A DNA stretch of 64,000 bases from Methanoculleus formosensis (GTDB lineage Archaea > Halobacteriota > Methanomicrobia > Methanomicrobiales > Methanoculleaceae), in contig NZ_VHLL01000002.1 of NCBI RefSeq assembly GCF_025384765.1, positions 1 through 64,000 on the forward strand. The letters run 5' to 3'. Within the stretch, counting starts at the first letter, position 1. Each line of letters opens with the position of its first letter. The position numbers were made by a program, and so were the translations under genes. Below, piece after piece: positions 2,563 through 20,703 of this stretch. A model generated the notes under the pieces. That model was given only the letters and a program-made list of their open reading frames with translations, was not told where the DNA came from and searched no databases.

Positions 2563-2570
2563 TAATTATA
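2563..2570 (+). promoter_or_regulatory. TATA-type promoter for nurA-herA
   Basis: The AT-rich box ATTAATTATA stands in otherwise GC-rich sequence about 45 bases before the proposed ATG of the NurA-like gene. An archaeal TATA box here would give a transcript start near 2590 and a leader of about 20 bases. This is inferred from position and composition only. Confidence 0.45.
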
Positions 2571-2610
2571 GCCCTTGCAAAGGTCTTCAATAATCAGGTT
2601 CCGTGATTAT

Positions 2611-3750
2611 ATGCAGGTAAACTCTCCCGATGTTCAGCCGTTCAACGAATTACCTGAAGCTCTGGTTGAAGAATTGCTCGACCAGTGCGGATCGATGGGA
2701 GAGACACTTTCACATTCATTCCGAAATTTACTCGATAATAAGGGCTCCATCCGGAACGATCTGGTTGAGAATGGTTTACTGAGGCATGACTCGGATCTGC
2801 TCACAAATCAATCATATCCAACAACCTGTGGCGTCGATGGTGCGTATACGCTGGAGAGGCTGCTTTCAACCGATATGGTTGCAGTAGCAGGAGTCGCCGT
2901 TGAAGGGCTGACCCCCCCAAGCGAGACCAGGCACTGGGAATACCCCCATCATCTCTGCGAGGTGCTGCCCGCCAGACACCACGATAAAACGGGCCTTGTC
3001 TCAAAGGCGATCATGCTCATGATGGAGCTGGAACTGGCCAGTTCAGCTCCCCACGACGTCATTTTTCTCGACGGGTCATTCACCACGCCTCTCATCAATA
3101 TCCAGCAAGCATTGTACACCATCGATGGAGTCGATAACCATCTCTCAGAGATCCTGCTCGAACGAATGAAGACCACGATGGAGGCATACGAAACAGTCGT
3201 TCATGCCCGGCGGTCTGACCAGCAATTTGTCAGCGTGCCCAAGTACACGTCTCATAACCAGATAACTAAAATTCTCCTGAAAGAGGGCGTATATGAGGAC
3301 CGGGCGCTCCTCTCCTTTGTACTGCATGCCGGCGAGTATATCCGGCCGTTTCCATTCAAGGTCCCGGATGGCCTGTGGTCTTTTGCAGAACCCCTCCTCA
3401 AGGAAACAGGAAGTCTGAAGGCCATCATTGACGGCATGAGTAATCTCTACGTAGTGTATTACCGCCCGTTTCTCCATTCACCAACCTTCAGGTTGGAGCT
3501 CCCCCGATCGGTCGCGACCGACAAAAACCGCCTAAGTATGGTCTTCGAAGCGATCAGGTTGCAATGTGGCACTCCCGGGATATTTGAGCCCTATCCCCTC
3601 TATCTGGCGGATAGAATGGTGAAACAGATGGGAAAGGTCATTCCTGCCATCAGGAAAGCAACGACGCAGGAGATGCTGCAATTCTGGGACCAGGCAGAGG
3701 CTGAGGTGTATCTGCTGATGCACGGCTATCGAACGGAAATTGGACGCTGA
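2611..3750 (+). CDS. nurA: NurA-family 5'-3' nuclease
   Basis: NurA is a 5'-3' exo/endonuclease that works with the HerA translocase on DNA ends. The 379-residue product shows the family's metal-binding acidic residues: GVDGAY near residue 75, an MMELEL helix, FLDGSF near 160, a conserved Lys in VSVPKYTSHNQI near 210, and ADRMVKQM near the end. I chose ATG 2611 because the TATA box at 2563 fits it; a TTG at 2575 would add 12 residues. The stop is nine bases before HerA, as in classical archaeal operons. This pair sits in a defence island next to a giant helicase, unlike the usual Mre11-Rad50 context, so a defence role is likely. The Mre11/Rad50-like YhaO-YhaN pair lies about 20 kb away. Confidence 0.85.
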   Translation: MQVNSPDVQPFNELPEALVEELLDQCGSMGETLSHSFRNLLDNKGSIRNDLVENGLLRHDSDLLTNQSYPTTCGVDGAYTLERLLSTDMVAVAGVAVEGLTPPSETRHWEYPHHLCEVLPARHHDKTGLVSKAIMLMMELELASSAPHDVIFLDGSFTTPLINIQQALYTIDGVDNHLSEILLERMKTTMEAYETVVHARRSDQQFVSVPKYTSHNQITKILLKEGVYEDRALLSFVLHAGEYIRPFPFKVPDGLWSFAEPLLKETGSLKAIIDGMSNLYVVYYRPFLHSPTFRLELPRSVATDKNRLSMVFEAIRLQCGTPGIFEPYPLYLADRMVKQMGKVIPAIRKATTQEMLQFWDQAEAEVYLLMHGYRTEIGR

Positions 3751-3759
3751 GCTGATACC

Positions 3760-5544
3760 ATGTCAGAGATCAAGGAAAATTTTGACCGCACAGAGAAGAT
3801 CGGAGTCGTCGGATCGCCGTCCTCAACAGCGGGACTGAATATCGATATTCTCGGTACTGCGGTGAAGAAGCGCCTTGTCGGTAGTCTGAGTGTGTTTCAC
3901 TACACGCAGGACGGTGAAGATCACTACGCTATGGGTCAGATCACCGAAGTGCAGATGCAGAATGTCTGGACCCAGGATCCGACCATGCGGGGTATTATCC
4001 GGCAGAAAGGCAGGGTGGATCCGATAACGGAGCGGCAGGACGTCCACACCGCCAATATGATGGTAAGTTCGGTCTTTTCGGATGGGAGCAAGGGGATCGA
4101 GCCGAGCTCACTCGGCACGGTCCCTGCGACGGGGACATCGATCCGGCTGCTGGATCAATCCACCATGGAGTCTCTGTTCACAAACTATCGCGATGAGATG
4201 TTCTACTTAGGAAATGCCTACGGCACATCGATTCCGATGCCCATGTGGCTCAAGCATTTCGGGAAGTCCCAGGCGGGCAGCGGCGGTGTCGGTGAGGCAT
4301 ACCACATCGGGGTGTTTGGAAAGACGGGCTCCGGAAAATCAGTTCTTGCAAAGATGATGGTGATGGGGTATGCGCAGCACCCGTCAATGAGCATATTCAT
4401 CCTCGACCCCCAGGGGGAATTCGCCGGCGATCTGGCAGAGGCTTCTCCTCTACGAAAAATATTGGTTGAGAGGTTAGGCAGGAACGTCGAGATCTACGAT
4501 CTTCACAACCTTGTCCTGGACGATAAAGAGTTGTTCAAGAGGATACTGGCCAACTCCGGATTTTTTGAAGAGCTCGGCATAATCATGGACACAAACCGGT
4601 ATCGTGCAGCGAATGAGGTGCTGAAAGCGCTCCAGCCAAAGAAACGATCGGCAAAGAAGGGCGGTCTGAGCTCATTTGGTATCGATACAGAATCGTCGTC
4701 ACCTTCCGGGAGCATCCCACTCCATCAGGCGCACACCCGCGAAGCGTTCGACCGGGTGTGGGATGCGCTCGGCCTGGAGCAGGTTCAGAATAACATTTAC
4801 ACATCAAAAGATACCCGGGAGAGGCTCAGCCTGAATTACGAGACTGCCGATCCCGACGAGTTCTACGAGCGCTGGAGGAAGGTTGCCAACCTCTTCTCGT
4901 ATGAGCATAAGGTTCGCGGGGTGAAGATCCAGGATCTGGTCAAGAAGATAGGCGAGCGGCAGGGAAATACTATCATCATCGACTTCTCCGAGAACAACAT
5001 CCCGCCGGACACCTACTGGAACGATTCAATCCGGTTCATCCTGATCGGGGAGTTCCTCAGGACGATCAAAAGCGAGGCGGAGGCGTCATATCGAGCGAAG
5101 CAACTGCTCAACTGCCTTGTGGTCATCGATGAGGCCCACCGCCTTGCACCACGGGAAGATCCTGAGACCGAGGATATGAATGTCGTAAGAAATTCACTCA
5201 TCGACGCCATCCGCACGACACGGAAGTACGGCCTGGGCTGGATGTTCATCAGCCAGACACTCTCCAGCCTGCACCGTGAGATCATAAGCCAGATACGGGT
5301 CTACGTCTTCGGGTTTGGCCTGGGGTGGGGGACGGAGCGGTATGCCCTGACAGACATCATCGGGGGTGCTGAGGATGCGATCCAGCTCTACCAGATGTTC
5401 CGCGACCCCCAGAGTTCCCTTGGCGAACGCACGTACCCGTTCATGACCATCGGCCCCATTTCGCCGCTTTCGTTCTCAGGGACGCCGCTGTTCTTCAATG
5501 CATTGAAGTATCCGGATGAGTTCTTGAGGATGAATTTTGAGTGA
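3760..5544 (+). CDS. herA: HerA-type hexameric DNA translocase (DUF87)
   Basis: This 594-residue ATPase has an N-terminal HAS-barrel region (about residues 10-110), a Walker A motif FGKTGSGKS near 188, LDPQGEF just after it, and a Walker B motif VVIDEAHRLAPRE near 455. The C-terminal part SQTLSSLHREIISQ is typical of HerA/FtsK-like pumps. HerA drives DNA through or along the NurA nuclease. The insertion between the Walker motifs is long and contains a Lys/Ser-rich segment near residues 290-320. The gene converges on the giant helicase, with 228 bases between stop codons that contain no gene. Confidence 0.9.
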   Translation: MSEIKENFDRTEKIGVVGSPSSTAGLNIDILGTAVKKRLVGSLSVFHYTQDGEDHYAMGQITEVQMQNVWTQDPTMRGIIRQKGRVDPITERQDVHTANMMVSSVFSDGSKGIEPSSLGTVPATGTSIRLLDQSTMESLFTNYRDEMFYLGNAYGTSIPMPMWLKHFGKSQAGSGGVGEAYHIGVFGKTGSGKSVLAKMMVMGYAQHPSMSIFILDPQGEFAGDLAEASPLRKILVERLGRNVEIYDLHNLVLDDKELFKRILANSGFFEELGIIMDTNRYRAANEVLKALQPKKRSAKKGGLSSFGIDTESSSPSGSIPLHQAHTREAFDRVWDALGLEQVQNNIYTSKDTRERLSLNYETADPDEFYERWRKVANLFSYEHKVRGVKIQDLVKKIGERQGNTIIIDFSENNIPPDTYWNDSIRFILIGEFLRTIKSEAEASYRAKQLLNCLVVIDEAHRLAPREDPETEDMNVVRNSLIDAIRTTRKYGLGWMFISQTLSSLHREIISQIRVYVFGFGLGWGTERYALTDIIGGAEDAIQLYQMFRDPQSSLGERTYPFMTIGPISPLSFSGTPLFFNALKYPDEFLRMNFE

Positions 5545-5772
5545 ATTTTAATCGAGACTACCCCAATGTTCACCGAGACATGGATTCCAGGCCAATCTCC
5601 CCCTCTACACCCTAGAGGAACGTGGCAGCGAGATGTATTCGTTGTATAGTATCAGATCTGTTAATTTCCGGTGTTTCTACGGTTTTCACGCCCATTGCCG
5701 CGGTACTCAGCGGGTCCAATCAATTCAGGCAAAAGAAACAAAAAAACAAGAAATTTAGATCTGCATTAAGGA

Positions 5773-8700
5773 CTATTGTAGCAACGCAGAAAGGCTCTTA
5801 ATGCGCTCTTCCAGAGAATCCCGGTAATCTATCGGGAAGACAGTATAGCCCATCAGGTCAAGTCTATCCCTCTTTTGTATATCATCCCGCTTCTGAGCTT
5901 CCTGCTCATGATCCGGCCCATCAACAAAGATTACAATCGAGTGACCGTTTTTCTGGTAGGTAAAATCCGGACGGGCAATCATCTCATCTCCTTCTGCAAT
6001 GACCTCCTGTCCGCTATCCGGAAGAGGAAGACCTGCCTGATAGATCGCCTCAAGAACCTGCTTTTCAAGAGAAGATTCACACCTTGACATAAGTTCATCG
6101 AGTCGGTTCTTCGCCGAGGGAGAATGGTCGGGGATGATGCTGACTTCTGCCATCTGAAGAGAACGGAGGAGAGGAAGCACAAGTTTTCGGTCAAGGATGT
6201 CGTGGTCGAACTGGTTGTAGTAGTTGCACAGACATTCGTAGCACGCACGGTCACACTTCTTCTCATCATATTCGTGGATGATAGTCAGCGCCTGTCTGAT
6301 AACCTCGTGGAACGTGGAACGATCAGCGATGGACTCGAGTATTCCGGCGCCCCCTTCCGAAGTCTCGTAGAGAATGATGCTTGACTTCTTCCTGTTCTCG
6401 GGATCCGACATCAGGAAGTACCGGATCTCATCTACATCGACGTTCATGCTGATCTGGACGCCCTCGATGATCGCCTGAGCAAGGGTGGTAAAGAACGATC
6501 GATACAACTCCTCATCCAGCGGATTTCCCTCACCATCAAGCGGAACGGGCACATCAATCTTGACAACGTCGTGTCGGGTGTTCGTGTAGAGAATGATATT
6601 CCTGATGATATTTTCCTCAGTTCCGTTCCTCCAACACCTCTTCATCTCATTCGTTGAGTCAAGGTGGTCTTTCACCCCGTCCTTCCCGAAGATCCAGCGG
6701 TTGCATGCCGTGCAGAGTGTGAAGCCCGACTGTGGTTCATCCTTATCGGATGGTATCGGACCGTGGTTGATGCTGACGATCTTTCCCGAATGGTCGTAGG
6801 AGAGGGTGAGCAGCGGTTCGCCGGGGTCTCCCGCCACGTAAAATTGTCGTGCGCCTGAGGGGGCATAGTGGCGGGTGACCTCATAGCCGAGACGTTGCCG
6901 TTCTTCCTCGTCGCTCGTGATCGTCGATCTGGACTCCGCCAGCTGGTCGGGCATCTCAATTGAATGTTGAATCACTGCTGCATTTTCCAAGGACGCACCA
7001 CAGTTCCTGCAGGCGCCACCGGTCATTGAGATCTCCTTCTCGTCCAGGAAGACCGCTTCACAGTATGGGCAGATGAGGACGGTGCTCATCGCGGGCTGGT
7101 TGTTCTCGGTCCTGAGCCGGGGAGTCCTGACCGAGTACCGGTTCCCGCTGAAGTACACGCTGTTGCCGGGTGCGTACTCGACCAGCGCGATGTTGCGATC
7201 CCGCTTCAATTCCGCCTCTTCCGACCCGAAGACCCCCTTGTAGTTGATTGCAAGGGATGTAACCTGTGTGGGGAAGCCGTAGTTGGGGAGGAAACCCTGT
7301 GAGCCAAGATACCGATAGGTCGTGAAGTCCCCGCCGCCGTTCCGCATATCGTTCAGTTTCTTCTCGATTGAGTCCCGTCTTCGCTTATAGACGCCTCTCT
7401 GCCGATCGGAGATCCGACCTCTCTGCAGGAAGATGTTAATTTCGTCCAGTTCTTTGAGGAGGGCTGAAAACTCACTCCTGAAGAGGTTGAATGCACCGTC
7501 AAACGAGGAGACGAACGAATCGACGGTCTGTATGATGAAAGTGTCGTCAAGCCAGTCGAGTGATTGCTTCTCCTCCGCAAGCACCTCGTTGATTGCGTTC
7601 AGGATCTGCACCCGGTGTTCCTCGATCATCTCGCCGAGGCGGGTTCTGCTGAGGCCGTTCTCCACATCCGGGGCGCTTTCCGTGAACATGGGGAGGTTAT
7701 CCTTCTCGAAGTCGAGGATCCCATCGATCTTCTGCGGGATCTTAAGGGTGATGATCTCAAGGATGAGAGCATGGATGTGTGCACGGATCAGCATCCGGTT
7801 GTCCATCAGGAATCGGGGGGAGGCGATCTTTCCGGAGATCATCTTTGCTGGATACCGGTAGAAGTACTGGTCATGAGGACCGCGGCGTGATCCGACACCG
7901 CAGAACGTGAGGATCATCGAGGCCTGCGACTTCCGTCCAGCACGCCCGGCACGCTGTGCGTAGTTGGAGGGCGATGGGGGAACGTTTCTCAAGTAGACAG
8001 CCGAGAGGGTTCCGATATCGATACCCAGTTCCATAGTAGGGGTGCATACGATTACGTTCAGGCTATCCTGTGAATCCCGGAACCGGGTCTCAAGCAGTTT
8101 TCGAGTCTCCCCGTCGATCTGTCCGCTATGCTCCTCTGCATGGAGCTGGACCGCTTCCCGGAACGACCTTGTATACTCCTGCCGGAAGTAGTTGTTGGAG
8201 AGATCGAGCGAGATTAGGTCGGTGCAGTTCGGGTTGATGCAGAGGTTGAGTTCATGGAAGTGGGTCACCTGCCCGCATTTCCTGCAGACCTGCACCTCTC
8301 CGGGAGGAGCGAGCGAGAGTTCGATGATCTCGGGGTTGATCATGGAGAGAGTTCCAACCCGGTCGATACGCTCCTGCTTCAGCCCGCCTTCGCCTGCAAG
8401 CACTGCTTCTACATGTTCGACGATCTGTTGCGCTTCTTCAGTGGTCTCTGTTCCCAGCGACTTCTTTGTCCAGCGAACCAGCGACCCGTTCGGGTGGGTG
8501 AGACGGAAGACCGTGGCCCGATAGGTCTCTCTCCGCGCGTTGTCGCTGTACCCGGTTGGCCGCGTGGAGAGCAGCTCGTTGTGGAATATGAGATCCGGGT
8601 TCAGGAACCGCTCAATCCTTTCGGCAAACTCAAAGGGCCGCATGAAGAAATCGGAGGAGATGGCAAGATTATGCCGCATGATGTCCAGGAACCCCTTCAG

Positions 8701-11133
8701 GTAATCCTCCCGCCTGCGAGGACCTACCCGCGAGAGTTGAGATACGCCTTCCCAGAGGCTGTCATCCTCGGCGAGGCTGTCCAGCCCGGCATAGGTGACT
8801 CGCAGCAGGCCAACATCCTCAAGGTTCGGCTGGTTCTTCTGACGGGTTGAGCCCATTTCGAGGATGGTATTCAGCAGGAGGTATTTCCTGTACACTGGTT
8901 CAGCCTGTGAGCCCCTCCGCATTCTGCCCTGACCGGGATCCTTCTCGTATTGAGGGAGAGCACCGTCTGCACGATATTGCATAAAGGTGTCAAAGATGGC
9001 GTCACCTGCCTCGGTGAGAGGGAGGGAGTCCTCGGCATGAGCCAGGGCATGATACAGGCCCCGCCTGAAGTGGATCCGCTTCTGGATATTGTTCATGTGG
9101 GCGGCCTGTAGGGCTGTATCCTGCCGGTTATCGGAGAATGCGATGACTTTCTGCTCCATTTCAGGGAGGGTGGTGAGCATATTCGAGACTAAAATGTCGG
9201 TAGCGGTAGATCTCCCCACAGTGCCGAAGGAGAAGAGTTTGTTGAACTCCCTCCGCGTTCTCAGGTCATATGATACGCCGCAGCCTTCACTCGGACAGAA
9301 CCGGAACGGCATCTCGATGAGAGTGACGCGGAGTTTCTCCGGGCACAGGCAGATCTCTCCATCTTCTCCATCAACAGTCAGTTTGTTACAGTCCGGGCAG
9401 TAAGTGCCGGTCCGCGGAGTGGCTATGGTGCGATACCTCTCTTTGACCGCTCCGGAATCGGTGCACCACCACTCCGGCGGGGATGCCCTTTCCTCGCTAA
9501 ACTCTCCCAGATAGAGGTACAGGGCTTCTCCCTCCTGCGCGGGAGCATCCAGATCACGTGGTCTGACCGTTCCGTCGGTCAGGAGTTCGACACTGTAGTA
9601 CTCCTGGCCGCAAGCCCGGCAGAAGACCATGGGGAAGGTGATCCGTGTTCGCCCTCTCTCCGCACAGACCGGGCAGGTGACCTCGCCGGCATCGTGAAGG
9701 TGGGGGCCGTCGCGGGAGAGGCAACACTTGATCTCTCTCCCCTGGGAGAAGTACATGTGCATCTTGGGGATGAACCGTTTCTGGAGGGTATCCCCAACAG
9801 GCACCTCGCTGAGCATCCCTGCAATGAACGCAGCCTCGATCTCCCGGGCAGCCTCTTCATATGTAGCGTCCTGCCTGACGGTCACGCGATATATGCGGAT
9901 CAGGTCGGGAATGCTCTTTGGTTCGTCGGCAAGTTGATCCTCGATGAACTGGATGGTCTTCTGCGACCCGAGAGTCTCCCCGAGGTAGGCGGCTGAGGGA
10001 TCCTGAATCCCGATCGGCTCGCCGATGAGTTGTTCGGTGAGTTCCTTCAGGTAGTCCCTGCCAGGCTCCTTTACCCGGAGCAGGTCGTCGCCGACGAGAA
10101 CCCTGTCGGGAAGTTTGCTCTCCGTGCCGCGGGGCGGAAGGAGGAATGTCTCTCCGATGACCGATGTGCTGTCAAAGAGTTCACCAAAGAGTTTTGCGGC
10201 GAACGCGGCGATGGCCTCTCCTGCCCTCTCACCCTCCCCCTCTCTCACGGTCGCACTGGTTCCGATGCACCGGAGCGTGCCGGTGGTTCCGGTGTGCTGC
10301 TTCAGTCTCCGGATGAGGTATGCGGTGTCGGCGCCTTTCTTCCCGGTGTAGGTATGGATCTCGTCGAGGACGAGGTACTTGAGGATGCCGAGGTTCTCCG
10401 GCGGGAAGAGGATCTTGTCCTCGAACCGGGTGAGGATGTACTCGAGCATGACATAGTTGGTGATCAGGATGTCCGGAGGGGTTCGCTGGATCTCCTCCCG
10501 TGAGATGAGCTCGCTGTCGTAGGGAGCGTCCCGCGCGGTCCGTTCCCGGTATGTGATGAGCGCTTCGTTGTAAGTGTGCGGTGTATCGCCGGTGTAGATG
10601 GCGACCTTCAAACCCGAGCCGTCCAGGCGGGCCGCGAGGTCATCGTACTGGGAGTTTGCGAGCGCGTTCATCGGGTAGACGAGGATTGCCTTGATGCCCC
10701 GGAGGCCCCGGTCCTGCATCTCAAGACATGTGGAGACGACCGGTATCGCAAAGCAGAAGGATTTCCCGGAGCCGGTTCCCGATGTGACGACGGTGTTCTT
10801 CCCGGAGAGTATCGATCGTATTGCGTCACTCTGGTGCCGGTAGAGGCGGACCGGAGAGGAGGATCGGTCTTCCGGGTCCCTGGTGAAGTACTGCGAGGTT
10901 TCTGGATGGAGGATATGCTCTCCGGTGAGGGTCACAAATGAGTCTCCATCGGCATACCGGCGAGCAAGCTCGATGTACGGGCCTTTGTAGAGGAGGGTTC
11001 CCTCCTCGATCTTTCTGTCGATCCATTCTTTGATGACGGGATTCTTGAATTTCTGGAAAGAACTGACAAAGGTTCGATATGCGCCGGCAACTGTATCGAG
11101 GGCTGTTACCGGGTCAAAACTGGTATTTGTCAT
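5773..11133 (-). CDS. Giant DEAD-box/DUF1998 helicase with C-terminal nuclease-like domain (DruE or fused DrmA-DrmB type)
   Basis: About 1786 residues from ATG 11133; an upstream ATG at 11220 would add 29 residues that look unlike the family. Helicase domain 1 carries Walker A SGTGSGKS near residue 120, DEIH near 258 and a GTSATV motif. A cysteine-rich middle follows (CPVC, CRACG, CPDC pairs). Helicase domain 2 has TPTMELGIDIGTLSAVYLRN and QRAGRAGRK. The DUF1998 part has SEGGAGILES and a C4 cluster CDRACYECLC. The last 120 residues look like a DUF559/Vsr-type nuclease: a Glu-rich helix, ARPDF, VIFVDGPDHE. Druantia DruE has this size and order; DISARM splits comparable parts into DrmA and DrmB. 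It faces NurA-HerA tail to tail and shares a ~127-bp divergent promoter region with two unknown genes. Confidence 0.85.
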   Translation of the reverse strand: MTNTSFDPVTALDTVAGAYRTFVSSFQKFKNPVIKEWIDRKIEEGTLLYKGPYIELARRYADGDSFVTLTGEHILHPETSQYFTRDPEDRSSSPVRLYRHQSDAIRSILSGKNTVVTSGTGSGKSFCFAIPVVSTCLEMQDRGLRGIKAILVYPMNALANSQYDDLAARLDGSGLKVAIYTGDTPHTYNEALITYRERTARDAPYDSELISREEIQRTPPDILITNYVMLEYILTRFEDKILFPPENLGILKYLVLDEIHTYTGKKGADTAYLIRRLKQHTGTTGTLRCIGTSATVREGEGERAGEAIAAFAAKLFGELFDSTSVIGETFLLPPRGTESKLPDRVLVGDDLLRVKEPGRDYLKELTEQLIGEPIGIQDPSAAYLGETLGSQKTIQFIEDQLADEPKSIPDLIRIYRVTVRQDATYEEAAREIEAAFIAGMLSEVPVGDTLQKRFIPKMHMYFSQGREIKCCLSRDGPHLHDAGEVTCPVCAERGRTRITFPMVFCRACGQEYYSVELLTDGTVRPRDLDAPAQEGEALYLYLGEFSEERASPPEWWCTDSGAVKERYRTIATPRTGTYCPDCNKLTVDGEDGEICLCPEKLRVTLIEMPFRFCPSEGCGVSYDLRTRREFNKLFSFGTVGRSTATDILVSNMLTTLPEMEQKVIAFSDNRQDTALQAAHMNNIQKRIHFRRGLYHALAHAEDSLPLTEAGDAIFDTFMQYRADGALPQYEKDPGQGRMRRGSQAEPVYRKYLLLNTILEMGSTRQKNQPNLEDVGLLRVTYAGLDSLAEDDSLWEGVSQLSRVGPRRREDYLKGFLDIMRHNLAISSDFFMRPFEFAERIERFLNPDLIFHNELLSTRPTGYSDNARRETYRATVFRLTHPNGSLVRWTKKSLGTETTEEAQQIVEHVEAVLAGEGGLKQERIDRVGTLSMINPEIIELSLAPPGEVQVCRKCGQVTHFHELNLCINPNCTDLISLDLSNNYFRQEYTRSFREAVQLHAEEHSGQIDGETRKLLETRFRDSQDSLNVIVCTPTMELGIDIGTLSAVYLRNVPPSPSNYAQRAGRAGRKSQASMILTFCGVGSRRGPHDQYFYRYPAKMISGKIASPRFLMDNRMLIRAHIHALILEIITLKIPQKIDGILDFEKDNLPMFTESAPDVENGLSRTRLGEMIEEHRVQILNAINEVLAEEKQSLDWLDDTFIIQTVDSFVSSFDGAFNLFRSEFSALLKELDEINIFLQRGRISDRQRGVYKRRRDSIEKKLNDMRNGGGDFTTYRYLGSQGFLPNYGFPTQVTSLAINYKGVFGSEEAELKRDRNIALVEYAPGNSVYFSGNRYSVRTPRLRTENNQPAMSTVLICPYCEAVFLDEKEISMTGGACRNCGASLENAAVIQHSIEMPDQLAESRSTITSDEEERQRLGYEVTRHYAPSGARQFYVAGDPGEPLLTLSYDHSGKIVSINHGPIPSDKDEPQSGFTLCTACNRWIFGKDGVKDHLDSTNEMKRCWRNGTEENIIRNIILYTNTRHDVVKIDVPVPLDGEGNPLDEELYRSFFTTLAQAIIEGVQISMNVDVDEIRYFLMSDPENRKKSSIILYETSEGGAGILESIADRSTFHEVIRQALTIIHEYDEKKCDRACYECLCNYYNQFDHDILDRKLVLPLLRSLQMAEVSIIPDHSPSAKNRLDELMSRCESSLEKQVLEAIYQAGLPLPDSGQEVIAEGDEMIARPDFTYQKNGHSIVIFVDGPDHEQEAQKRDDIQKRDRLDLMGYTVFPIDYRDSLEERIKSLSALLQ

Positions 11134-11230
11134 GGGACGTAATGGATCATCTCTGTTGCAGACAATAAGGTTTATGATAAGGATTGTGTGGATGATGATC
11201 GCGGGGCATTTAAGAAGCAAACCCTTTTCT

Positions 11231-11238
11231 CTATAAAT
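11231..11238 (+). promoter_or_regulatory. TATA box of the two-gene unknown operon
   Basis: CTATAAAT lies 23 bases before the ATG at 11261. At archaeal spacing, transcription would begin at or next to the start codon, giving a leaderless message. The same short region must hold the promoter of the giant helicase on the other strand. Confidence 0.55.
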
Positions 11239-11260
11239 TCCTTACAGTAGGTTAGCAGAT

Positions 11261-12298
11261 ATGAAACGCATCCAGACTCTCCAGGGTTTAAAAGAGGTGT
11301 TGCAGGCCGGTTTTGATGACAATGAAGCGCTTTTAGAGCAGTACGGCCAGACACACATCACGCAACTTAAAGCGTACCTGCTGGAGACTAATCGTTCCAT
11401 CGACGAGGTTGGTTGCCCTCTCGGGAGCTGGAAGAGTCTCGATGCCAGCGGCTGGTATATCAATCATGGTAGCCTATCGCCGAATACTCTCTTCCTGGAC
11501 ACTACTCGTGAGCGGGTCTGGATACTTTACACGATACTCGATGCGACCGAAGCAGATGCGGTCACCGATAAATGGATCCGGAATTTGCAGGGCCTTGATA
11601 GGTGCTGGTTGTCCAGAAACCATCTTCTTCATTACGATGCTAAGGAATCGTGGCAACAGCGCGGCCTTGGGCTAAAATTTTCCGATGGGCTGGCATCTGA
11701 TGAAGAAGCAGGATACTTCAGCCTGAAGGCCTGGTATGGAGCAACAGAAAAAGTACATGGTCTGGCAGAGGTACTGGAAACAGCGAGAGAAAATTTTGCA
11801 ATATATAGCAGTCGTTGGCAGAAACTAAAGGAAGATTCGGTGACGCTGGCTGTAGAGTGGTATAGCAGCGGAAAGGTAACCGTCAACAAAGCAATTGATC
11901 TTGACGAGGTTATGTTATCGATCTCCGATATGGCGAATCGGTACGAGGATGCACTGGTTGAGGCGACAACTCTGAGGAATGAGAGCCTGGGAGCTTTTGA
12001 ACTGAACTTCACCCAGAATATCGACCTTGAAGCATTTTCTAAAGCGGTATCGATGGGTAAAGGAAGGATGAATCTCTGGCTCATTGAAACCGAGACAGAG
12101 CCAGATTTCAGGCGGTTCAAGGGTGTAGACCTGCATACATGGGATAGAGTCTTCTTGGATGTCGGGTCTGACTTTGCATACCTGACGGTTCCGGGTAAAG
12201 GGTGTGTCAATGCGGCACCTCGGATAGCAACAATCCAGGGTGAAGATAACGCCGGAAAAACCTCAATTTTCTTCGACGGAGTTGAAGTTTTTGATTGA
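11261..12298 (+). CDS. Unknown protein, divergent from the giant helicase
   Basis: I do not recognise this 345-residue protein. The first 80 residues are helical, with a conserved-looking GSWKSLDASGWYINHGSL region. The middle is rich in aromatic residues (WIRNLQGLDRCWLSRNHLLH). Residues about 175-260 look like long amphipathic helices and may be a coiled coil (LAEVLETARENFAIYSSRWQ). No transmembrane segment or nucleotide-binding motif is visible. Its last 59 bases overlap the next gene, which implies translational coupling. Because it shares a promoter region with the DruE-like helicase, I infer a partner or regulator role in that system. Its base composition is lower in GC than the methyltransferase downstream, consistent with separate acquisition. 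Confidence 0.7.
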   Translation: MKRIQTLQGLKEVLQAGFDDNEALLEQYGQTHITQLKAYLLETNRSIDEVGCPLGSWKSLDASGWYINHGSLSPNTLFLDTTRERVWILYTILDATEADAVTDKWIRNLQGLDRCWLSRNHLLHYDAKESWQQRGLGLKFSDGLASDEEAGYFSLKAWYGATEKVHGLAEVLETARENFAIYSSRWQKLKEDSVTLAVEWYSSGKVTVNKAIDLDEVMLSISDMANRYEDALVEATTLRNESLGAFELNFTQNIDLEAFSKAVSMGKGRMNLWLIETETEPDFRRFKGVDLHTWDRVFLDVGSDFAYLTVPGKGCVNAAPRIATIQGEDNAGKTSIFFDGVEVFD

Positions 12299-13178
12299 GG
12301 TGGACAGGAGGATCATCCTCTGGCGTAATACGATTGCTCTCTTTCACAAGTTGAATAAACCGAGGTTTGTCGGACCGTTTCGAGAGGCAGGGTATGCCTA
12401 TCGTATCGAACCGATATTATCGGTGCGGAGGACCGGAGAGGAGAAAAACCCCGATATCGTGGCAAGCAGCCCTTCAGGGTGGCTGCTCCTCGAGTTAACC
12501 TGCAACGATCACTCAAAGAGTGATAAGCTGGATTCCTACAGACAGATTGATCCGCGAAGTTTGAGCCAGTATGGATTACACGTTCATCAGAGTGCTCCTG
12601 ACACGATTTGCAGTAGGTTGTCTGAAGTTGATGATGGAGAGCACTGCCAGATAATCGTTAGAGATACTGTTCTTGTCAGGAGGTTGGACTGCCTGAGCGA
12701 TACGAATCTCAAATCGGCTCTTCAGGAGTTTTCCGGGACGGAGTTAACCAGACTGCCCAATATTGCGATTAACTTGCTACCCGAATCCAAAAACCATGAG
12801 GTTCGGAGAGGGTTGGTTGACATCGTAATGCAGCTTTTCCAGCCGGGCAGTGAAGGGAAGACTGCGTATCAGATGGTGGAAGAGGGACTAGATAGACTAT
12901 CGGATAAGGTCAGCGCAAGTAAGAAAACCGCGATGATGAACAGGGTAAAGCAGGAGATGGATGTTTTGGTGAATCGGGATCTTAAGGGATATCTCGAGCT
13001 GAGGGATGACGGTACATACGTTCCAACAGATAAGTTCAAGCCGCATCCAAAGGCGCTTGAGCGCATATCTTCAAGGCTGAGGGAATGGGCGGATCCCACA
13101 CAACGAAGTCTGAGCTCTTTTGAACCTTGCAGTGATAGTGTCCGGTGCGATGGACCGAACACTGGTGATGGCAGTTAG
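12240..13178 (+). CDS. Unknown protein with possible PD-(D/E)XK-like motif
   Basis: The 312-residue reading frame begins with GTG 12240 inside the previous gene; a GTG at 12300, directly after that gene's stop, is a reasonable alternative start. Residues about 70-105 read NPDIVASSPSGWLLLELTCN followed by a Lys and a YRQ helix. A PD, a hydrophobic beta strand ending E-L-T and a following Lys/Gln helix is how many restriction-like folds look, so this may be a nuclease or a degenerate one. The C-terminal part is helical, with a stretch resembling a winged-helix DNA-binding domain (LVNRDLKGYLELRDDGTYVP). Family unknown to me. It converges on the methyltransferase, with 98 bases between. Confidence 0.65.
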   Translation: MKITPEKPQFSSTELKFLIEVDRRIILWRNTIALFHKLNKPRFVGPFREAGYAYRIEPILSVRRTGEEKNPDIVASSPSGWLLLELTCNDHSKSDKLDSYRQIDPRSLSQYGLHVHQSAPDTICSRLSEVDDGEHCQIIVRDTVLVRRLDCLSDTNLKSALQEFSGTELTRLPNIAINLLPESKNHEVRRGLVDIVMQLFQPGSEGKTAYQMVEEGLDRLSDKVSASKKTAMMNRVKQEMDVLVNRDLKGYLELRDDGTYVPTDKFKPHPKALERISSRLREWADPTQRSLSSFEPCSDSVRCDGPNTGDGS

Positions 13179-13276
13179 TGCTGCCTGCCAGGCGGAGGCA
13201 TGTATTCAGCCAGAGAGGGGAGATCTCAGGTAACCGGCGAATCTTTGTAGCGCTACATGAGAGGGCCTCCCCCCGC

Positions 13277-16200
13277 TCATTCCTCCTCACCCGCATCGGG
13301 ATCCCCGGCCCCGCCGGACTTCCGCCTCTCTATATACTCGACCGCTTCACGCATCGAGAGCTTCCGCGACGACGACGACCCCCTGATCCAGAACTCGTCG
13401 TCGCCGTTGTTCTTCACGAACACCGGCTCGTTAGAAGCCCTGACCTCAACCGCCCAGAACGCCTTCCCGCTATCTTCGAGCGAGTGGATCATGATCCCGG
13501 GGAGGAACCGGTTGCCGAGGTACTGCTTCACCAGGTCATCGAATCGGAGCCGCAGGCCGTCTTCGTTCTTCCGCTGGGAGAGTTTCAGGTCGCCGTCGAG
13601 TCCGACGATCCTCCCGGCATCATCGACGCCGACGAAGAGCACCCCGCCGTGGGTGTTCATGAAGGACGCAAGGGTCCTCGCGATGGTGTGCTCGAGCGCC
13701 TTGTTCCTCTGCTTCCGCTCCCGGTCCCACGATATTGACTCCTTGAACTCGACCCGCTCGCTCTCGCCGCCGACGATGAGCGCTCTCCAGTCGGGCTTCC
13801 CGTCCTTCTCCGGAAGATCGGCCCGCATCACGCGCACAAACTCCCGGGCAAGGTCGTCGTATTTCCGGAGGATGACTTCCTTTGTGCGGTACCTCCCGTA
13901 CTTCGCCTCGTCCTTGCGCTTCACGATGGGGAAGGTCTCCATGATGTAGTCGACGTCGTCCCGCGAGATCTCGTAGAGGTGGAAGTAGAGGGCGTCGAGG
14001 TCGCACCGGAGGTCGAACCGCCGCTCCTCGTCCCAGACGAACGGCCGGGGCGTGCCGTCCTCACCGACGGGGTTCTGCGGGAACCAGGCGTTCCACCGCG
14101 CCACGCCCACCTCGGCGAGGACGTCGCGGGCGAAGGGCTCGAGGTCCCGGGCGGTGTAGGTGAGCTCAATGACGCGAGGGGCGATGAAGTCGATGAGGGC
14201 CGGGGTGTAGGTGGAGGGGGGGAGGACGGGAAGTTGCTTTATGATATGGTACGTGAAATTTGTCCCACCCATTTTTTGCCGGATAATATAATCAAGAGGA
14301 TAGGCGATGAAAGATGATATATAGAGCAATACATCCACAAATTCACTCGAGTTGTGAATGTAAATTAGCGGCATTGAATGCCCAACGGGAATATTCGGAA
14401 GAATGGAAGCCACGCAGGTTCTTTCATTTGTGGTGTTTGAAATATTCCGAAACCCAATGAGATGATTTTGTTCTGGGTATCTAGTGCGGGCAATGAAATC
14501 AGCATATGCTACCCAATATCTGGGCAAGGGAGACTCCTGCGTGTCATTATGGATCTCTTGGAACCTCTGGAATTCGTTACCACTTGGATTGGCATCGGAA
14601 AACCGATGGTCGAAGTGCCAAACCATCTTGCCCTCATACAACGGCAGCCAGACCTCCTCCCCCTTCACGAACCGGTTCCCGTCGAGCGCGAACCCCGCCG
14701 CCTCCATCTCCTCCTGCGTGCGGAAGAGGTGGGAGTCGTTGGACATATCGAACATTCGCTGGAACGAGACTCCCCAGGGGTTTCCCGCCTCGCCCTTCGT
14801 CTCATCGATCAGCACCGGCACATGCCGGTAGACCGCCTTCGTGATCTCCGCGTCGCGCTTCGACCGGAAGATCGGGCAATTCTTCGTGTTCGGGTTGATG
14901 AGCAATATCTCCTCGGGCGTGAGGGTGAAGTGCCGGTCGTCGTCGTGGAGGTCGTCGATCGTATGGAGGAAGAAGGCGAGGTCGAATGCGCCAGTGCCTG
15001 CCTCCATACCGGCCATCGTGAGCAGGCAGAACTTGAACCTGCTGTCGATCGGGAAGAATTTCTTTCTGTTTTCGATATCGTAAAGGCTCACCAGCGATGC
15101 CTCTTCAACGAGATCGCCGAAGAACGGAGCCGTCGTTGCATCGGTCGCGATCCCGGTCGGCACGATGATTCCGGCCCACCCCCGGGAGTTGATCGCCAGT
15201 CTAGCAAATTCAGCAAAGACTGTATAAGTGTTGACGTCTCCCGTCCCGGTCAGCGGGAATCGGCCCGATGTGCGGATGAAGAGGCTCTCGCACTCGCTTG
15301 AGCACTTTGCGGCGAGGAACTCCCCATAGAGTATAGGGTTCGTCTTCTTCAGCGCCGTAATCATCCGGTTCCGCTCCGTCGCATTCCGGGCGCCGGCGAC
15401 CGCCGGGTCGCGGGAAGCAAAGAACTCCTTCTCCTGGATCTTGATCCGTTCCCATGGCGGGTTCCCGAGCACGCAGTCGAACCCCCCGTCCGCAAAGACC
15501 TCCGGGAACTCGAGGTGCCAGTGGAAGAACCGGTGCTCGTTTGCAATACGCCGTACCTCGGCCAACGTATCCTCAACGAGCATCCCTCCCCCGCTCGCCT
15601 GAACCATCCGCACCGTCGCGGTCGTCGGGGCTGTCCTCGCGTGCTCCCCATCCAGAGGCCAGAAGAACGCGGCGCACCAGCTGTCTGCGGCCAGGCGCTC
15701 CTTTGCATACTCGGATGAGGCTATCAGCCGCTCATACTCGGTCTTCTTCGCCTCGACGCTGTCGGGGTCGTCCTCAGAGGCCTCCGCAAGCGCCGCAAAC
15801 CGTCCGGCACAGGCCTCCAGCACCGTAGACCGGGCGGAGAACTCCTCGAACGTCCGGGTCTGCCGTTGCTCCTTGTTTGCCGCTTTGATCCTCTTTGCGA
15901 CTTCTTTTGAATCTCCCTCCACCGCCGTGTAGGCCTCGTCCGGGATGCCTCCCGCGATCAACTCCGGCGTCGCCCCGACGAGCGAGTTCCCGCACTTGAT
16001 ATGGTGGTCGAGGAAGGAGAGCGGCTTATCGCCCACCAGCGCGTTGATCCAGAGTGAGACCCTCGCGAGTTCCACCGCCATTGGGTTCAGGTCGACCCCA
16101 TAGATGCAGTGCGCAAGCACGTCCCGCCGGGCTGCCTGCACCTCCTGCGCCGAAGGCAACTCCGTCCCGGCGCGGATCTTCGCCAGTTCCCGGCCGAGCC

Positions 16201-17803
16201 GGTTTGAGGCCGCGATCAAAAACGCCCCGCTCCCGCACGCCGGGTCACAGACGCGGATCGAGAGGAGCGCCTTCTCCCTCGCTGCAGGATCCGGTCCTGC
16301 CCGGGAGAGCCGGTCGGCGATCACCGGGTCAAGAGCGCTCTTGATCAGCTCCGCGATCAGGTCAGGGTTCGTGTAGTACGACCCCGTGGTCTTCCGCTCC
16401 GAGCCCCGTGGGTCCAGCATGAACTGGCCGGGCCGGTACTCCCGCCCGTTGACCTCCTCAAAACCCGTGGTGATCCGCGGCGTGTAATCGAGCAGGCTCT
16501 CGTATATCGCCCCGATCTCCTCCACCGAGAGGTCGGCGTAACTGATCCGCTGGCGACCGTGACCCCTCTGCCGCCTCCCTCCGGTCTCTGAGACTGTCCA
16601 GGTCAGCGAGCGGATCGCGTTCATCAGCGCCGTGTTCCGACACTTCGCATCCTTCAAGAACCGGGCCCCGTCGTTTGAAAAGAGCATCCCGTCGAACGCG
16701 TTCACCCCGAGTTCGGGCACCCCCTCCTCAAGCATCCGAAACGTCACAGAGAGCCCTTCCCAGAGGTCGGTGTTCCGGTCGTCCCGCCCCTCAAACGCAT
16801 CCACCCGCTCCCGAAGCGACGTGATCGAGTACTCCTCAAGGAAGAGGTCCCCGTGGTCCCCGCCGCCGCCGAGCATCCCCCGCTGCTCCGCAAAGAGCAT
16901 GAAGATGATCCGGTACACCACCATCAGGACCTCCTGATAGTACGCCCGGCAAGCCCCGTCATCGCCCCGCAGCCGCTCGATCAGCGCCCCGTCCAGGAAC
17001 CCGTTCCCGAACTCCTCGATCGCCTGAACCACGTTCACCCGCAGGCTCTCACCGATCTTCTCCCCCGCCTGACGGCTCACCTCGTAGTACTCCTCCAGCG
17101 GCTCTCTGCCGGTCGCAGGATCGCGGGCGAACCGGCTTGCGTGGCAGAACCGGTAGAGCGCAAGGAACTCAGGGTAACTCCGGTTCAGGAAGATCCCTTC
17201 GAGATCGAACTCCACATACCCCGGAACCGTCGTATGATGGTAGTCCCGCAGGATCCTGATCACCGTCTCGTTCATCAGCACCGCCCAGGTCGCATCGTGC
17301 CGGTTCAGGCAGTCCTGCAGGGCATCGTGGGGTGAAGGCTCCCCGCGGGAGGGACGGACGTCCGGGTCTGTCCCCGGCGCCAGGATATGGATCACCGGAG
17401 GTTTCGGGATCCCCTCGCGGGCGAACCAGCCCCGGTGGGAGAACCGGTACTTCAGCCGGTCGCTGATCACGATCTGCTTCGTCGTGGACGTCGGCTCAAA
17501 CCCGAGCGCATCCAGCACCGGCCGCTGCCAGAGACGCCTGACCTCCTCCGCACTCATCCTTCCAGCCAAGATATCCCGGAACTTCTCATCAAACCGGCGG
17601 AGGAGCCGCTCCCATACATCCCTGACCTGCGCGAGGAACTGCGCCTCATCCTGCGGCGGCAGGTCCTCTTCCCGCCAGGGCCGCACGAACGTCATCGGCC
17701 GGGCATACTCAAACCCGTGCTTCTCGTCCTGCAGCAGGGAGGCAAAGTGTTCTGTGACAATCCCGCCCGAGACGCGGACAAAAGACTGCTCCCTCCCCCT
17801 CAT
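13277..17803 (-). CDS. Eco57I-type N6-adenine DNA methyltransferase with C-terminal AlbA_2 domain (DrmMI-like)
   Basis: A 1508-residue enzyme. A long N-terminal region precedes the methyltransferase core. Motif I is DPACGSG near residue 522 (S-adenosylmethionine binding), VDLNPMAVELARVSLW follows, and catalytic motif IV is NPPW near residue 780. A target-recognition-like region follows, with RYWVAYADFIARTRYPEQN near 1100. The last 160 residues form an AlbA_2-type domain (GESERVEFKESISWDRE, GGVLFVGVDDAGRIVGLD). It should methylate adenine in host DNA for self-recognition. Its ATG overlaps the stop of the SNF2 helicase by four bases. This pairing and order match DISARM class 1 DrmD-DrmMI. A separate restriction nuclease is not encoded in the same operon. 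Confidence 0.85.
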   Translation of the reverse strand: MRGREQSFVRVSGGIVTEHFASLLQDEKHGFEYARPMTFVRPWREEDLPPQDEAQFLAQVRDVWERLLRRFDEKFRDILAGRMSAEEVRRLWQRPVLDALGFEPTSTTKQIVISDRLKYRFSHRGWFAREGIPKPPVIHILAPGTDPDVRPSRGEPSPHDALQDCLNRHDATWAVLMNETVIRILRDYHHTTVPGYVEFDLEGIFLNRSYPEFLALYRFCHASRFARDPATGREPLEEYYEVSRQAGEKIGESLRVNVVQAIEEFGNGFLDGALIERLRGDDGACRAYYQEVLMVVYRIIFMLFAEQRGMLGGGGDHGDLFLEEYSITSLRERVDAFEGRDDRNTDLWEGLSVTFRMLEEGVPELGVNAFDGMLFSNDGARFLKDAKCRNTALMNAIRSLTWTVSETGGRRQRGHGRQRISYADLSVEEIGAIYESLLDYTPRITTGFEEVNGREYRPGQFMLDPRGSERKTTGSYYTNPDLIAELIKSALDPVIADRLSRAGPDPAAREKALLSIRVCDPACGSGAFLIAASNRLGRELAKIRAGTELPSAQEVQAARRDVLAHCIYGVDLNPMAVELARVSLWINALVGDKPLSFLDHHIKCGNSLVGATPELIAGGIPDEAYTAVEGDSKEVAKRIKAANKEQRQTRTFEEFSARSTVLEACAGRFAALAEASEDDPDSVEAKKTEYERLIASSEYAKERLAADSWCAAFFWPLDGEHARTAPTTATVRMVQASGGGMLVEDTLAEVRRIANEHRFFHWHLEFPEVFADGGFDCVLGNPPWERIKIQEKEFFASRDPAVAGARNATERNRMITALKKTNPILYGEFLAAKCSSECESLFIRTSGRFPLTGTGDVNTYTVFAEFARLAINSRGWAGIIVPTGIATDATTAPFFGDLVEEASLVSLYDIENRKKFFPIDSRFKFCLLTMAGMEAGTGAFDLAFFLHTIDDLHDDDRHFTLTPEEILLINPNTKNCPIFRSKRDAEITKAVYRHVPVLIDETKGEAGNPWGVSFQRMFDMSNDSHLFRTQEEMEAAGFALDGNRFVKGEEVWLPLYEGKMVWHFDHRFSDANPSGNEFQRFQEIHNDTQESPLPRYWVAYADFIARTRYPEQNHLIGFRNISNTTNERTCVASILPNIPVGHSMPLIYIHNSSEFVDVLLYISSFIAYPLDYIIRQKMGGTNFTYHIIKQLPVLPPSTYTPALIDFIAPRVIELTYTARDLEPFARDVLAEVGVARWNAWFPQNPVGEDGTPRPFVWDEERRFDLRCDLDALYFHLYEISRDDVDYIMETFPIVKRKDEAKYGRYRTKEVILRKYDDLAREFVRVMRADLPEKDGKPDWRALIVGGESERVEFKESISWDRERKQRNKALEHTIARTLASFMNTHGGVLFVGVDDAGRIVGLDGDLKLSQRKNEDGLRLRFDDLVKQYLGNRFLPGIMIHSLEDSGKAFWAVEVRASNEPVFVKNNGDDEFWIRGSSSSRKLSMREAVEYIERRKSGGAGDPDAGEEE

Positions 17804-20703
17804 CGCCGCACCTCCGCCGTCGGCACCGGCTCAAGCAACCGCAGCGATATCAGGTCGTGGGAAGCGACCGAAATCTCCGCGGCGCCGGAAAGCCACCCGG
17901 GATCGGGGTAGACCGTCGCGAGCTGCTCCCGGAGTGCCTCCCGTTCAGCCACCAATTCCTGGCGCCGGGCCTCGATCCGCTCGGCAAAGATCGACGACCA
18001 CGTATCCTCGGCAAGCGCCCGGACAAGGTGTTTCTTCACGCTCGCCTCGCGCCCGGGGGGCAACGGCACCATCTCCACACGGTCGAGACCGGCGGCCTCC
18101 TCCTCGCCCGGGAAAGACCCCGTGACCAGATCGCAGGCGACCGGCACGATCTCCTCCACCAGCGAAGGGCGTGCCCCGCCGATGCTATAGCGAACGAGGA
18201 AGTGGTAGAGCGCCGTCACGTGGGCCACATTCGGGGTCGCCACCACGCAGACCCTGCCGTACATCTTCGTCTCCGGTGAGAAGACATCGCGCTTGACGAG
18301 CTCGATCAGGCGGCGCACCACCGGATGGCCTGTGTTCAGTTGCTCGATACCGGCCTCCTGAAGAGCGATCCGCTTCTCGAACGTAGCCTTCTCGATCACA
18401 TCGGGTAAGCCCGGCACCACCAGATCATTAGAGAGCAGGATTCGCAGTGTCTGGTTGCGGTCATGGTTCTCCGTGATCTCGCAGCCAAAGCGGACAAGCC
18501 CATTTCTTACAAAACGCTCGAAATCCTTCTCTGTCCCGATAACCTGCTCCGAAAGCGCCATCCGGGCCCGAACATCCTCGAGATCGACACCGGTCTGCCC
18601 GTAGAAACTCTCCCTCTTGATCTTCTCGATAGTCTCTTCGCTGAACGGATCGACCCGCTGCCCCGAACCGGGCCTATCCTGGTACGAATCAAACAGCGTC
18701 CGCTGCGCCGGCGGCAGACCGACATCCAGCCCCATCTCCCCGATAAGAGAGATCACGTCCGCATCGTCGCCGAAGAACGGCGGAGAGAATCCATAATCCT
18801 CCCGGATCTGTTGGGCCTTCTCGTACAGCACCCGGAGAATCTTTGCATCGAGCGTATCCCGCATCACCAGCGTCCGTATATGCACCTCGGGCTCGGGCTG
18901 CCCGTACCGGTCCAGCCGGCCGTTCCGCTGCTCAAGCCGGTTCGGGTTCCACGGCAGCTCGTAGTGAATGACCTGGTTGGCCATATGCTGGAGGTTCACC
19001 CCCTCGCTGATGCAGTCGGTCGCGACCAGAACCCCATATTCCGCCTTGATGAATGCCTCCATCACCTCGTGCCGGTTCTTCTCGTTCAGGTCGCCGTACA
19101 CGGCAAACACATGTGCAGGATCGATGCTCTTCAGCTTCTTCGGTATCTCTCTCGCGAGATAGTCCAGCGTATCCTTGTACCGGGTGAAGATCAGGACCTT
19201 CCGCGGGCCGTACTGTCCTCGCATCGCCAGGTCCAGGTAGCCGTTTCTCCGGGTGAGCTCCCGGAGCTTGCTGTCCTTTGCCGGGGTCACGTCCCGTGCC
19301 ATCTTCATCAGGTCCCGGAGACGCTCCGCTTCCGCTTCCAGTGCCGTCAGGCTCCCGTAAACCACCTGGTCGAGACGCTCGGACGCCTCCTCATCCGAGA
19401 GATCGTTGTCCCCTTCTTCATCAAGGGCGACCGCCTTCGCATGCCCCTCCGAGATTGCCTGCTCCTGCCTCTCGTCCTCCTCCCGGATCTTCTCCTCGAT
19501 CCGCTTGAGCCGGTTCTCAAGCGATATCTGTAACGCACGTGGAGAGGAGAGCCCCCGGCGGTGGAGGTGTAGCACCACCCACCGGGCCATCGTCCTGACT
19601 TCAATACGGTCATCCCGTTCTGCGAGATCGAGTAGACCGGTTCCGTAGTTGCTGAGTTCGTTTATGATCGTGTGTTCCTCGGGGAACGCCAGATCGACGG
19701 CAACCTCCTTCTGGTCGCGGGCCGGGAACGGATTATCTTCAGCGGCGTGGGAACGGAACCAGTCAACCACATCTTTTCGCCGCCGCTGGCAGACATGGTC
19801 TTTCGCCAGGGCCCGGTTGATCACCGGCTCATGCGGCGGGCCGGTTACAATCCCGCAGTCGAGCATGGTAAGGAGGCTCGCAAAGGTATCGGTATAGCCG
19901 TTATGGGGTGTTGCTGTGAGCAGCAGGAGATGTTTTGTCTTCTTCGCGACCTCTTTCGCCAGGGTGTGCCGGAGCATGCCAGTGCTCTCCTTCTCGGAAC
20001 TCTGGTGGGGTTTTGCGGCGAGATGTGCCTCATCGATGATCACAAGATCCCAGCCCGCGCTGATCGCAAAGGGGCGGACCCGCTCGGATTTGATGTAATC
20101 GATGGAAGTAATGATGCACGGATAACAATCCCAGGGGTTCGCCCCCGGTGGAATGCCCCTCTCAAGGCCGCGGAGATGCACCGACGAAAAGATCTTTGCA
20201 TCAATCTGGAAGAAGAACCGGAGCGCATCCTTCCACTGCTCCCGAAGGTTCTGCGGGCAGATGATGAGGATCCGGGATGCCAGGTTCCGGGACTTCAATT
20301 CAGAAACGATAAGCCCGGCCTCGATTGTCTTACCAAGCCCGACGTCGTCGGCGATCAGCATCCGGACTCGCTCCCCCTGGTTCAGGGCCATGATCACGGG
20401 AGCCAGCTGATACTCTGTCGGGATGACCGCACTCTTCCGCAGGCTCATCAACGGTGCAGTCCCGTGCACCATGGAATACCGGAACGCCTGAACCAGCAGG
20501 CGGTTGGTGGCGACATCTCCGATTATCTCCGGGTTCGGCGGATGAATTCTCCCCCTCTCAATCCGTTCAAACGGTGTGAAGAAACGATGCTGCTCTGCGG
20601 AATCGCTGTCGATACAGGTCGCACAGAGGATGTCCCCATCGACCAAATCAACTCGCCACAGGCGCCTCCTTAACGATACAATATCTCCTGAACGATATCC
20701 CAT
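17800..20703 (-). CDS. SNF2-family helicase (DISARM DrmD-like)
   Basis: This 967-residue protein is a SNF2-type DNA translocase. Walker A is ADDVGLGKTIEAG near residue 119, DEAH (IIDEAHLAAKPHQ) is near 224, LLLTATPHNGY is motif III, and the C-terminal lobe has SEGVNLQ and RNGRLDRYGQ. An N-terminal segment with ICATCIDSDSAEQHRFFTPFE precedes the ATPase. The C-terminal 250 residues have no motif I know. Length and layout fit DrmD of DISARM class 1. It is the first gene of a two-gene operon with the methyltransferase. In DISARM, drmA, drmB and drmC usually follow; here the only comparable helicase is the inverted one at 5773-11133. Confidence 0.85.
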   Translation of the reverse strand: MGYRSGDIVSLRRRLWRVDLVDGDILCATCIDSDSAEQHRFFTPFERIERGRIHPPNPEIIGDVATNRLLVQAFRYSMVHGTAPLMSLRKSAVIPTEYQLAPVIMALNQGERVRMLIADDVGLGKTIEAGLIVSELKSRNLASRILIICPQNLREQWKDALRFFFQIDAKIFSSVHLRGLERGIPPGANPWDCYPCIITSIDYIKSERVRPFAISAGWDLVIIDEAHLAAKPHQSSEKESTGMLRHTLAKEVAKKTKHLLLLTATPHNGYTDTFASLLTMLDCGIVTGPPHEPVINRALAKDHVCQRRRKDVVDWFRSHAAEDNPFPARDQKEVAVDLAFPEEHTIINELSNYGTGLLDLAERDDRIEVRTMARWVVLHLHRRGLSSPRALQISLENRLKRIEEKIREEDERQEQAISEGHAKAVALDEEGDNDLSDEEASERLDQVVYGSLTALEAEAERLRDLMKMARDVTPAKDSKLRELTRRNGYLDLAMRGQYGPRKVLIFTRYKDTLDYLAREIPKKLKSIDPAHVFAVYGDLNEKNRHEVMEAFIKAEYGVLVATDCISEGVNLQHMANQVIHYELPWNPNRLEQRNGRLDRYGQPEPEVHIRTLVMRDTLDAKILRVLYEKAQQIREDYGFSPPFFGDDADVISLIGEMGLDVGLPPAQRTLFDSYQDRPGSGQRVDPFSEETIEKIKRESFYGQTGVDLEDVRARMALSEQVIGTEKDFERFVRNGLVRFGCEITENHDRNQTLRILLSNDLVVPGLPDVIEKATFEKRIALQEAGIEQLNTGHPVVRRLIELVKRDVFSPETKMYGRVCVVATPNVAHVTALYHFLVRYSIGGARPSLVEEIVPVACDLVTGSFPGEEEAAGLDRVEMVPLPPGREASVKKHLVRALAEDTWSSIFAERIEARRQELVAEREALREQLATVYPDPGWLSGAAEISVASHDLISLRLLEPVPTAEVRR

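Follow-up and report, generated by a model that had tools for sequence, protein, structure and literature searches.

Three large minus-strand genes of a Methanoculleus formosensis genome, armA, armB and armC, are a new archaeal member of ARMADA. This virus-defence system, named in 2025 (Bell et al., 2025; PMC12458937), combines a BrxHII-like helicase and a PglX-like methyltransferase with a YprA helicase that is related to DruE and ends in a Vsr nuclease. In the reading that we favor, at a probability of about 85%, this trio represents ARMADA Type I, two further genes, U1 and U2, sit between armB and armC as a nested cassette in their own right, and the neighboring NurA–HerA genes are an independent module.

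The window, that is, the whole analyzed stretch of DNA, comprises the first 64,000 nt of contig NZ_VHLL01000002.1 from this 2.65 Mb archaeal genome. The initial annotation had claimed seven large genes at 2563–20703, and all of them are indeed present there according to open reading frames and profile searches (Pfam, PADLOC, NCBIfam), with domain scores well beyond what chance would give. The SNF2, methyltransferase and DruE-like genes are co-directional, with U1–U2 and NurA–HerA on the plus strand, and hence the three large minus-strand genes resemble one interrupted operon. Searches of the window for Rfam families and tRNA genes yielded no match.

Domain composition and linkage of the three genes

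ArmA (17800–20703, minus strand, 967 aa) is an SNF2/RapA-type, BrxHII/DrmD-like helicase. It matches the PADLOC profiles DrmD (1.1e-116, 389 bits) and BrxHII (6.9e-93), as well as NCBIfam DrmD at 1.3e-126, yet below the curated cut-off of the latter; the Walker A motif ADDVGLGKT and the DEAH motif are kept in the aligned relatives. The gene shares a 4-bp ATGA overlap with armB, and the two are probably translationally coupled.

ArmB (13277–17803, minus strand, 1508 aa) is a PglX/DrmMI-type N6-adenine DNA methyltransferase, matching PADLOC DrmMI (1.2e-85, 286 bits) and Pfam Eco57I and N6_Mtase, with the DPACGSG and NPPW motifs kept in relatives. Its C-terminus carries a Schlafen/AlbA_2 domain (13358–13765, minus strand; aa 1347–1482; Pfam SLFN_AlbA_2, 3.3e-18), which is found only in near relatives of the window clade, ArmB of more distant relatives ending near aa 1320 without it. 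Compared with ArmB of genome G002, the window protein is mostly 93–100% identical per 60-residue block outside aa 840–1200, and within this part (14203–15283, minus strand) identity in most blocks falls to 30–68%, alongside 90–100% per block in ArmC of the same pair. Judging by this pattern, the hypervariable part is probably an exchanged target-recognition region, and the swap suggests where ARMADA specificity varies.

ArmC (5773–11133, minus strand, 1786 aa) is a DruE/YprA-like DEAD-box helicase fitting the PADLOC profiles DruE3 (9.1e-132, 439 bits) and DruE1 (5.7e-131, 437 bits) about equally well, with Pfam DEAD, Helicase_C and MZB matches, the last corresponding to an MZB/DUF1998-type zinc-binding region. 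The first ATG agrees with the relatives better than a TTG at 11220 and was taken as the start. The C-terminus (5782–6075, minus strand) resembles Vsr/PD-(D/E)xK nucleases: in an alignment of 12 relatives we observe a PDF...FVDGPDH motif with D1723, D1738, G1739 and H1742 invariant, and Pfam MTES_1575 matches the same region at 15.1 bits, below its cut-off.

The three genes are linked in a conserved order far beyond close relatives. Of the 393 genomes of the phylum searched, 12 have the DruE-like helicase, 13 have the methyltransferase and 11 have both (hypergeometric P ~1e-18, treating genomes as independent, which they are not); SNF2, methyltransferase and helicase occur together in 11 of the 12 DruE-positive genomes. 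The order SNF2–methyltransferase–helicase on one strand is observed in nine genomes (G111, G368, G333, G313, G134, G185, G104, G525, G457), and helicase–SNF2–methyltransferase, in two (G397, G484). The apparent exceptions are due to contig ends, as in G382, in G181, where the genes lie on two contigs, and in G214, where the contig breaks inside the methyltransferase; in G412 the methyltransferase 3' end is at a contig edge. As the linkage persists at 28–29% identity (G104, G397, G214), it does not reflect recent shared ancestry. A profile scan of species genomes retained 80 DruE-like loci, which represent many phyla; of the 41 loci, bacterial and archaeal, that have at least 7 kb of sequence on each side, 38 carry both partners. 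Gene linkage thus provides independent confirmation of ARMADA as one system across Bacteria and Archaea.

The space between armB and armC

The U1–U2 pair is placed exactly between armB and armC. In loci with the A–B–C order the armA–armB junction is tight, 20 of 21 loci not exceeding 101 bp, and the armB–armC gap is at least 690 bp in 13 of 25. The window and G002 differ wholly in the content of this gap, although armC DNA is 97% identical (ArmC, 98%), and the edges of the swap are clean, at 13284 and 11179, so that the cargo slot of the window spans 11180–13283. In G525, with ArmC 77% identical, the slot is empty (39 bp).

The occupants vary considerably. U1–U2 is found in the window and in G032; viperin with a TPR protein and Csa3, in G002, G019, G111 and G457; SoFic, in G333; an OLD/AriA-like ATPase with companions, in G313; PDC-S70 and other genes, in G368; and a TBP gene, in G185. 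In the viperin–TPR–Csa3 module, as seen at L009:11426–16202 and L191:12141–20198, Csa3 lies immediately before armC.

On the armC side the slot is bounded by a conserved leader (11134–11179, minus strand) with a TATA-like CCTTATTG about 30 nt before the ATG. The leader is kept behind other cargo (G002, G019) and in the empty G525 site, and since it survives across these contexts, armC may have its own promoter. On the armB side, G368 (L080:9309–14445) has three copies of the 3' end of the gene, which alternate with cargo genes: the stretch 9309–9595 recurs at 12567–12853 (91%) and 14218–14445 (89%), adjoining stacked cargo. Such repeats, seen in one genome, are what one would expect were modules to enter through recombination at this end of armB. 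Self-comparison of the window and 11 other archaeal and bacterial loci revealed no armB 3' repeats, and the Planktothrix locus has one unrelated 39-bp repeat only. The conserved 3' end of armB is probably where homologous exchange swaps this cargo, and armC keeps a promoter-like leader of its own.

Small defence modules lodged inside larger defence operons have been described under the guilt-by-embedding approach (Payne et al., 2024, as cited in PMC12988326). The window module is similar to the embedded candidates, as summarized there, in its lodging, and differs from them in that its host operon is ARMADA and U1–U2 has no PADLOC profile match. We have found no description of the armB–armC slot, of U1–U2 or of the Schlafen-fused methyltransferase in the papers on ARMADA, BREX diversity and archaeal immunity that we consulted; those on BREX diversity contain no mention of DrmD, Druantia or DISARM, and those on archaeal immunity, of DISARM, Druantia or ARMADA. 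We tentatively put forward, as one possibility short of an even chance, that U1–U2 constitutes a two-gene defence system of archaea that has yet to be described, and that the armB–armC space of A–B–C operons is a dedicated slot for exchange of such modules by recombination at the armB 3' end. The gap is a defined and repeatable place to seek archaeal defence genes, having already yielded viperin, Fic, OLD-like and PDC-S70 proteins, which is useful because archaeal immunity is poorly mapped; the slot and the U1–U2 family, its unstudied occupant, merit follow-up.

U1 (11261–12298, plus strand, 345 aa) belongs to no named family and has homologues across the phylum; U2 (12240–13178, plus strand, about 312 aa, the start possibly slightly downstream of 12240) is predicted to combine a PD-(D/E)xK-fold domain with a winged helix. 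Neither has a match in Pfam, PADLOC (the candidate PDC and HEC profiles included) or NCBIfam. The AlphaFold model of U1 (pLDDT 86) has a best Z of 7.5, its C-terminal part being weakly TBP-like (Z 6–7). The U2 model (pLDDT 79) matches mostly PD-(D/E)xK nucleases, with Z up to 7.5, and its residues 182–288 match winged helices. These Z values are modest and, taken alone, within the range of common arrangements; the U2 fold assignment is strengthened by the fact that its matches largely agree on one superfamily and by a motif, PD...(D/E)CK, kept in the haloarchaeal homologues. U2 of the methanogen group has ELT where the catalytic ExK is expected, which makes nuclease activity doubtful.

Several other similarities were considered and set aside. 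When solved structures were searched by sequence with the profiles of U1 and U2, almost only designed proteins were retrieved, taken as chance matches; the KICSTOR-like top Foldseek matches of U1 were discarded at TM-scores below 0.15; and similarities to RnlA and to kinetochore Iml3/CENP-L are too weak for a family name.

Homologues of U1 are present in 17 of 393 phylum genomes, mostly away from DruE, with U2 almost always next to them; where the contig permits, the gene after U1 is U2, in some cases interrupted or truncated, or, in haloarchaea, a distant relative of U2. The pair is found at BREX in G002 and G160. Loci L033 and L035 have U1–U2 adjoining BREX genes (BrxC, PglX; PglZ, PglX, BrxL), and a second U1 copy in the window's own genome (L032:9673–10949) is followed by a truncated U2 remnant. 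At sites other than BREX and ARMADA, most of the neighbors scanned are housekeeping or unrecognized genes, and therefore a defence role rests mainly on the embedding. One haloarchaeal U1 relative was found on plasmids and none on viral contigs in protein and profile searches. The pair is best read as an embedded candidate for defence or DNA processing, comprising a TBP-like DNA binder and a PD-(D/E)xK–wHTH protein.

The divergent arrangement of U1 and armC, which share a short intergenic region, the winged helix of U2 and the retention of the pair at ARMADA in two genomes, the window's and G032, would also suit an accessory or regulator of ARMADA, e.g., one controlling armC via the divergent promoter, instead of an independent cassette. 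We consider this unlikely, as the cassette is found mostly in genomes lacking a DruE-like gene, both the window genome and G002 hold copies elsewhere, the G002 copy being the one at BREX, and other ARMADA loci lack U1–U2.

Comparison with ARMADA, DISARM and Druantia

The window trio agrees with ARMADA Type I in having a BrxHII-like SNF2 protein, a PglX-like methyltransferase with NPPW, and a DruE/YprA-like helicase with an MZB/DUF1998-type zinc-binding region. The Vsr-like C-terminus of ArmC, seen as a conserved motif with a sub-threshold Pfam match, may be a further point of agreement. The SNF2–methyltransferase–helicase order is also that of many archaea; in many archaea, as well as in cyanobacteria, the BrxHII-like helicase and methyltransferase genes lead the operon (Bell et al., 2025; PMC12458937). 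The mark of Type II is ArmD, a GajB-like helicase with a RelE domain (Bell et al., 2025; PMC12458937), and no ArmD was recognized among the neighboring genes scanned, which included part of the small ORFs only. The differences from Type I are the separation of armB and armC by U1–U2 and the added Schlafen/AlbA_2 domain of the methyltransferase; the main text of PMC12458937 mentions neither Schlafen nor viperin nor a hotspot.

The initial annotation had noted that the SNF2 and methyltransferase genes match DrmD–DrmMI of DISARM in an operon devoid of DrmA, DrmB and DrmC, as the PADLOC profiles and the relatives confirm, and its proposal that a single DruE-like protein stands in their place was right in substance, this arrangement being ARMADA. 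Like DISARM Class 1, the window has a DrmD-like SNF2 and a DrmMI-like methyltransferase, but separate DrmA, DrmB (DUF1998) and DrmC (PLD) are absent from the operon both here and in the relatives, and their place is taken by a single DruE-like protein, which itself carries a nuclease-like region. A PLD gene at 30074–30844, 9 kb from the operon, matches DrmC weakly (6e-05). The similarity to Druantia consists in the profile match of the helicase to DruE1 and DruE3; no DruH, DruA–D or DruM–DruF–DruG was recognized among the neighbors scanned, and SNF2 and methyltransferase genes are found instead. A degenerate DISARM Class 1 or Druantia variant would explain why the DrmD and DrmMI profiles match and why the helicase scores best against DruE, but we hold it improbable, given that neither a DrmA/DrmB pair nor the Druantia partners were found among these neighbors and that intact trios without them recur widely.

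ARMADA II from E. coli requires all its genes, the Walker A motifs and NPPW for function, and infected cells remained viable (Bell et al., 2025; PMC12458937). The window proteins show conservation of the equivalent motifs. By analogy with that system, we infer that ArmA, ArmB and ArmC cooperate in defence and that the cell survives. Most likely, ArmB would mark the host DNA through N6-adenine methylation, the hypervariable recognition region determining the target site; the SNF2 translocase ArmA and ArmC, with its DEAD-box helicase and Vsr-like nuclease, would act on unmarked invading DNA, which would be unwound and cut without killing the cell.

NurA–HerA and the rest of the island

The NurA-type nuclease (2575–3750, plus strand; Pfam NurA 1.4e-06, 28.5 bits against a cut-off of 21) and the HerA-type ATPase (3760–5544, plus strand; Pfam DUF87 7.8e-13, domain score 49.5 bits; PADLOC HerA 2.3e-14) are read as an independent accessory module of the island. 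The window type of NurA is present in five of 393 phylum genomes; HerA follows it in G219 and G336, and in G219 NurA adjoins a type I restriction gene. A housekeeping role was judged unlikely, since the window genome holds another NurA locus. The pair is similar to the DUF4297–HerA anti-phage pair (PMC11291478) in combining a HerA ATPase with a nuclease and differs from it in that the nuclease is NurA, not DUF4297.

The choice offered initially, between two or three adjacent systems and one hybrid, falls to three units: SNF2, methyltransferase and DruE-like genes, U1–U2 nested inside them, and NurA–HerA downstream. An undescribed seven-gene hybrid, where the methyltransferase would mark self and the DruE-like and NurA–HerA parts would degrade foreign DNA, fits the contiguity of the seven genes with no ordinary genes between them, but is highly improbable. 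The proposed check of co-occurrence beyond close relatives bears out the association of SNF2–methyltransferase with the DruE-like gene, and fails for NurA, HerA, U1 and U2, absent from the flanks of all 80 DruE-like loci from species genomes. Moreover, of the five genomes with this NurA type only the window genome has a DruE-like gene, and G002, the nearest of the DruE relatives examined (98%), has other cargo and no NurA of this type.

As a dense defence island occupies about 1–42 kb of the window, adjacency alone means little here, but a chance island in which even the SNF2–methyltransferase pair and the DruE-like gene are unrelated neighbors is refuted by the linkage of the trio at 28–45% identity in many phyla. 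The trio is conserved in two domains of life and corresponds to a system that has been published and tested experimentally (PMC12458937).

Other genes of the island include a DUF6978-like gene (below the cut-off) and a DUF1828 (PDC-M24B) gene at 907–2181, just upstream of NurA–HerA. A PDC-S18 candidate gene and a GmrSD-like gene are found in the segment 21665–29863, together with an SMC/metallophosphatase pair that has Lamassu-like (LmuB) matches. Two separate Schlafen/AlbA_2 genes with HATPase are located at 33756–35636 and 40128–41825, and an IS605-family TnpB/Cas12f-like protein is encoded at 37001–38188.
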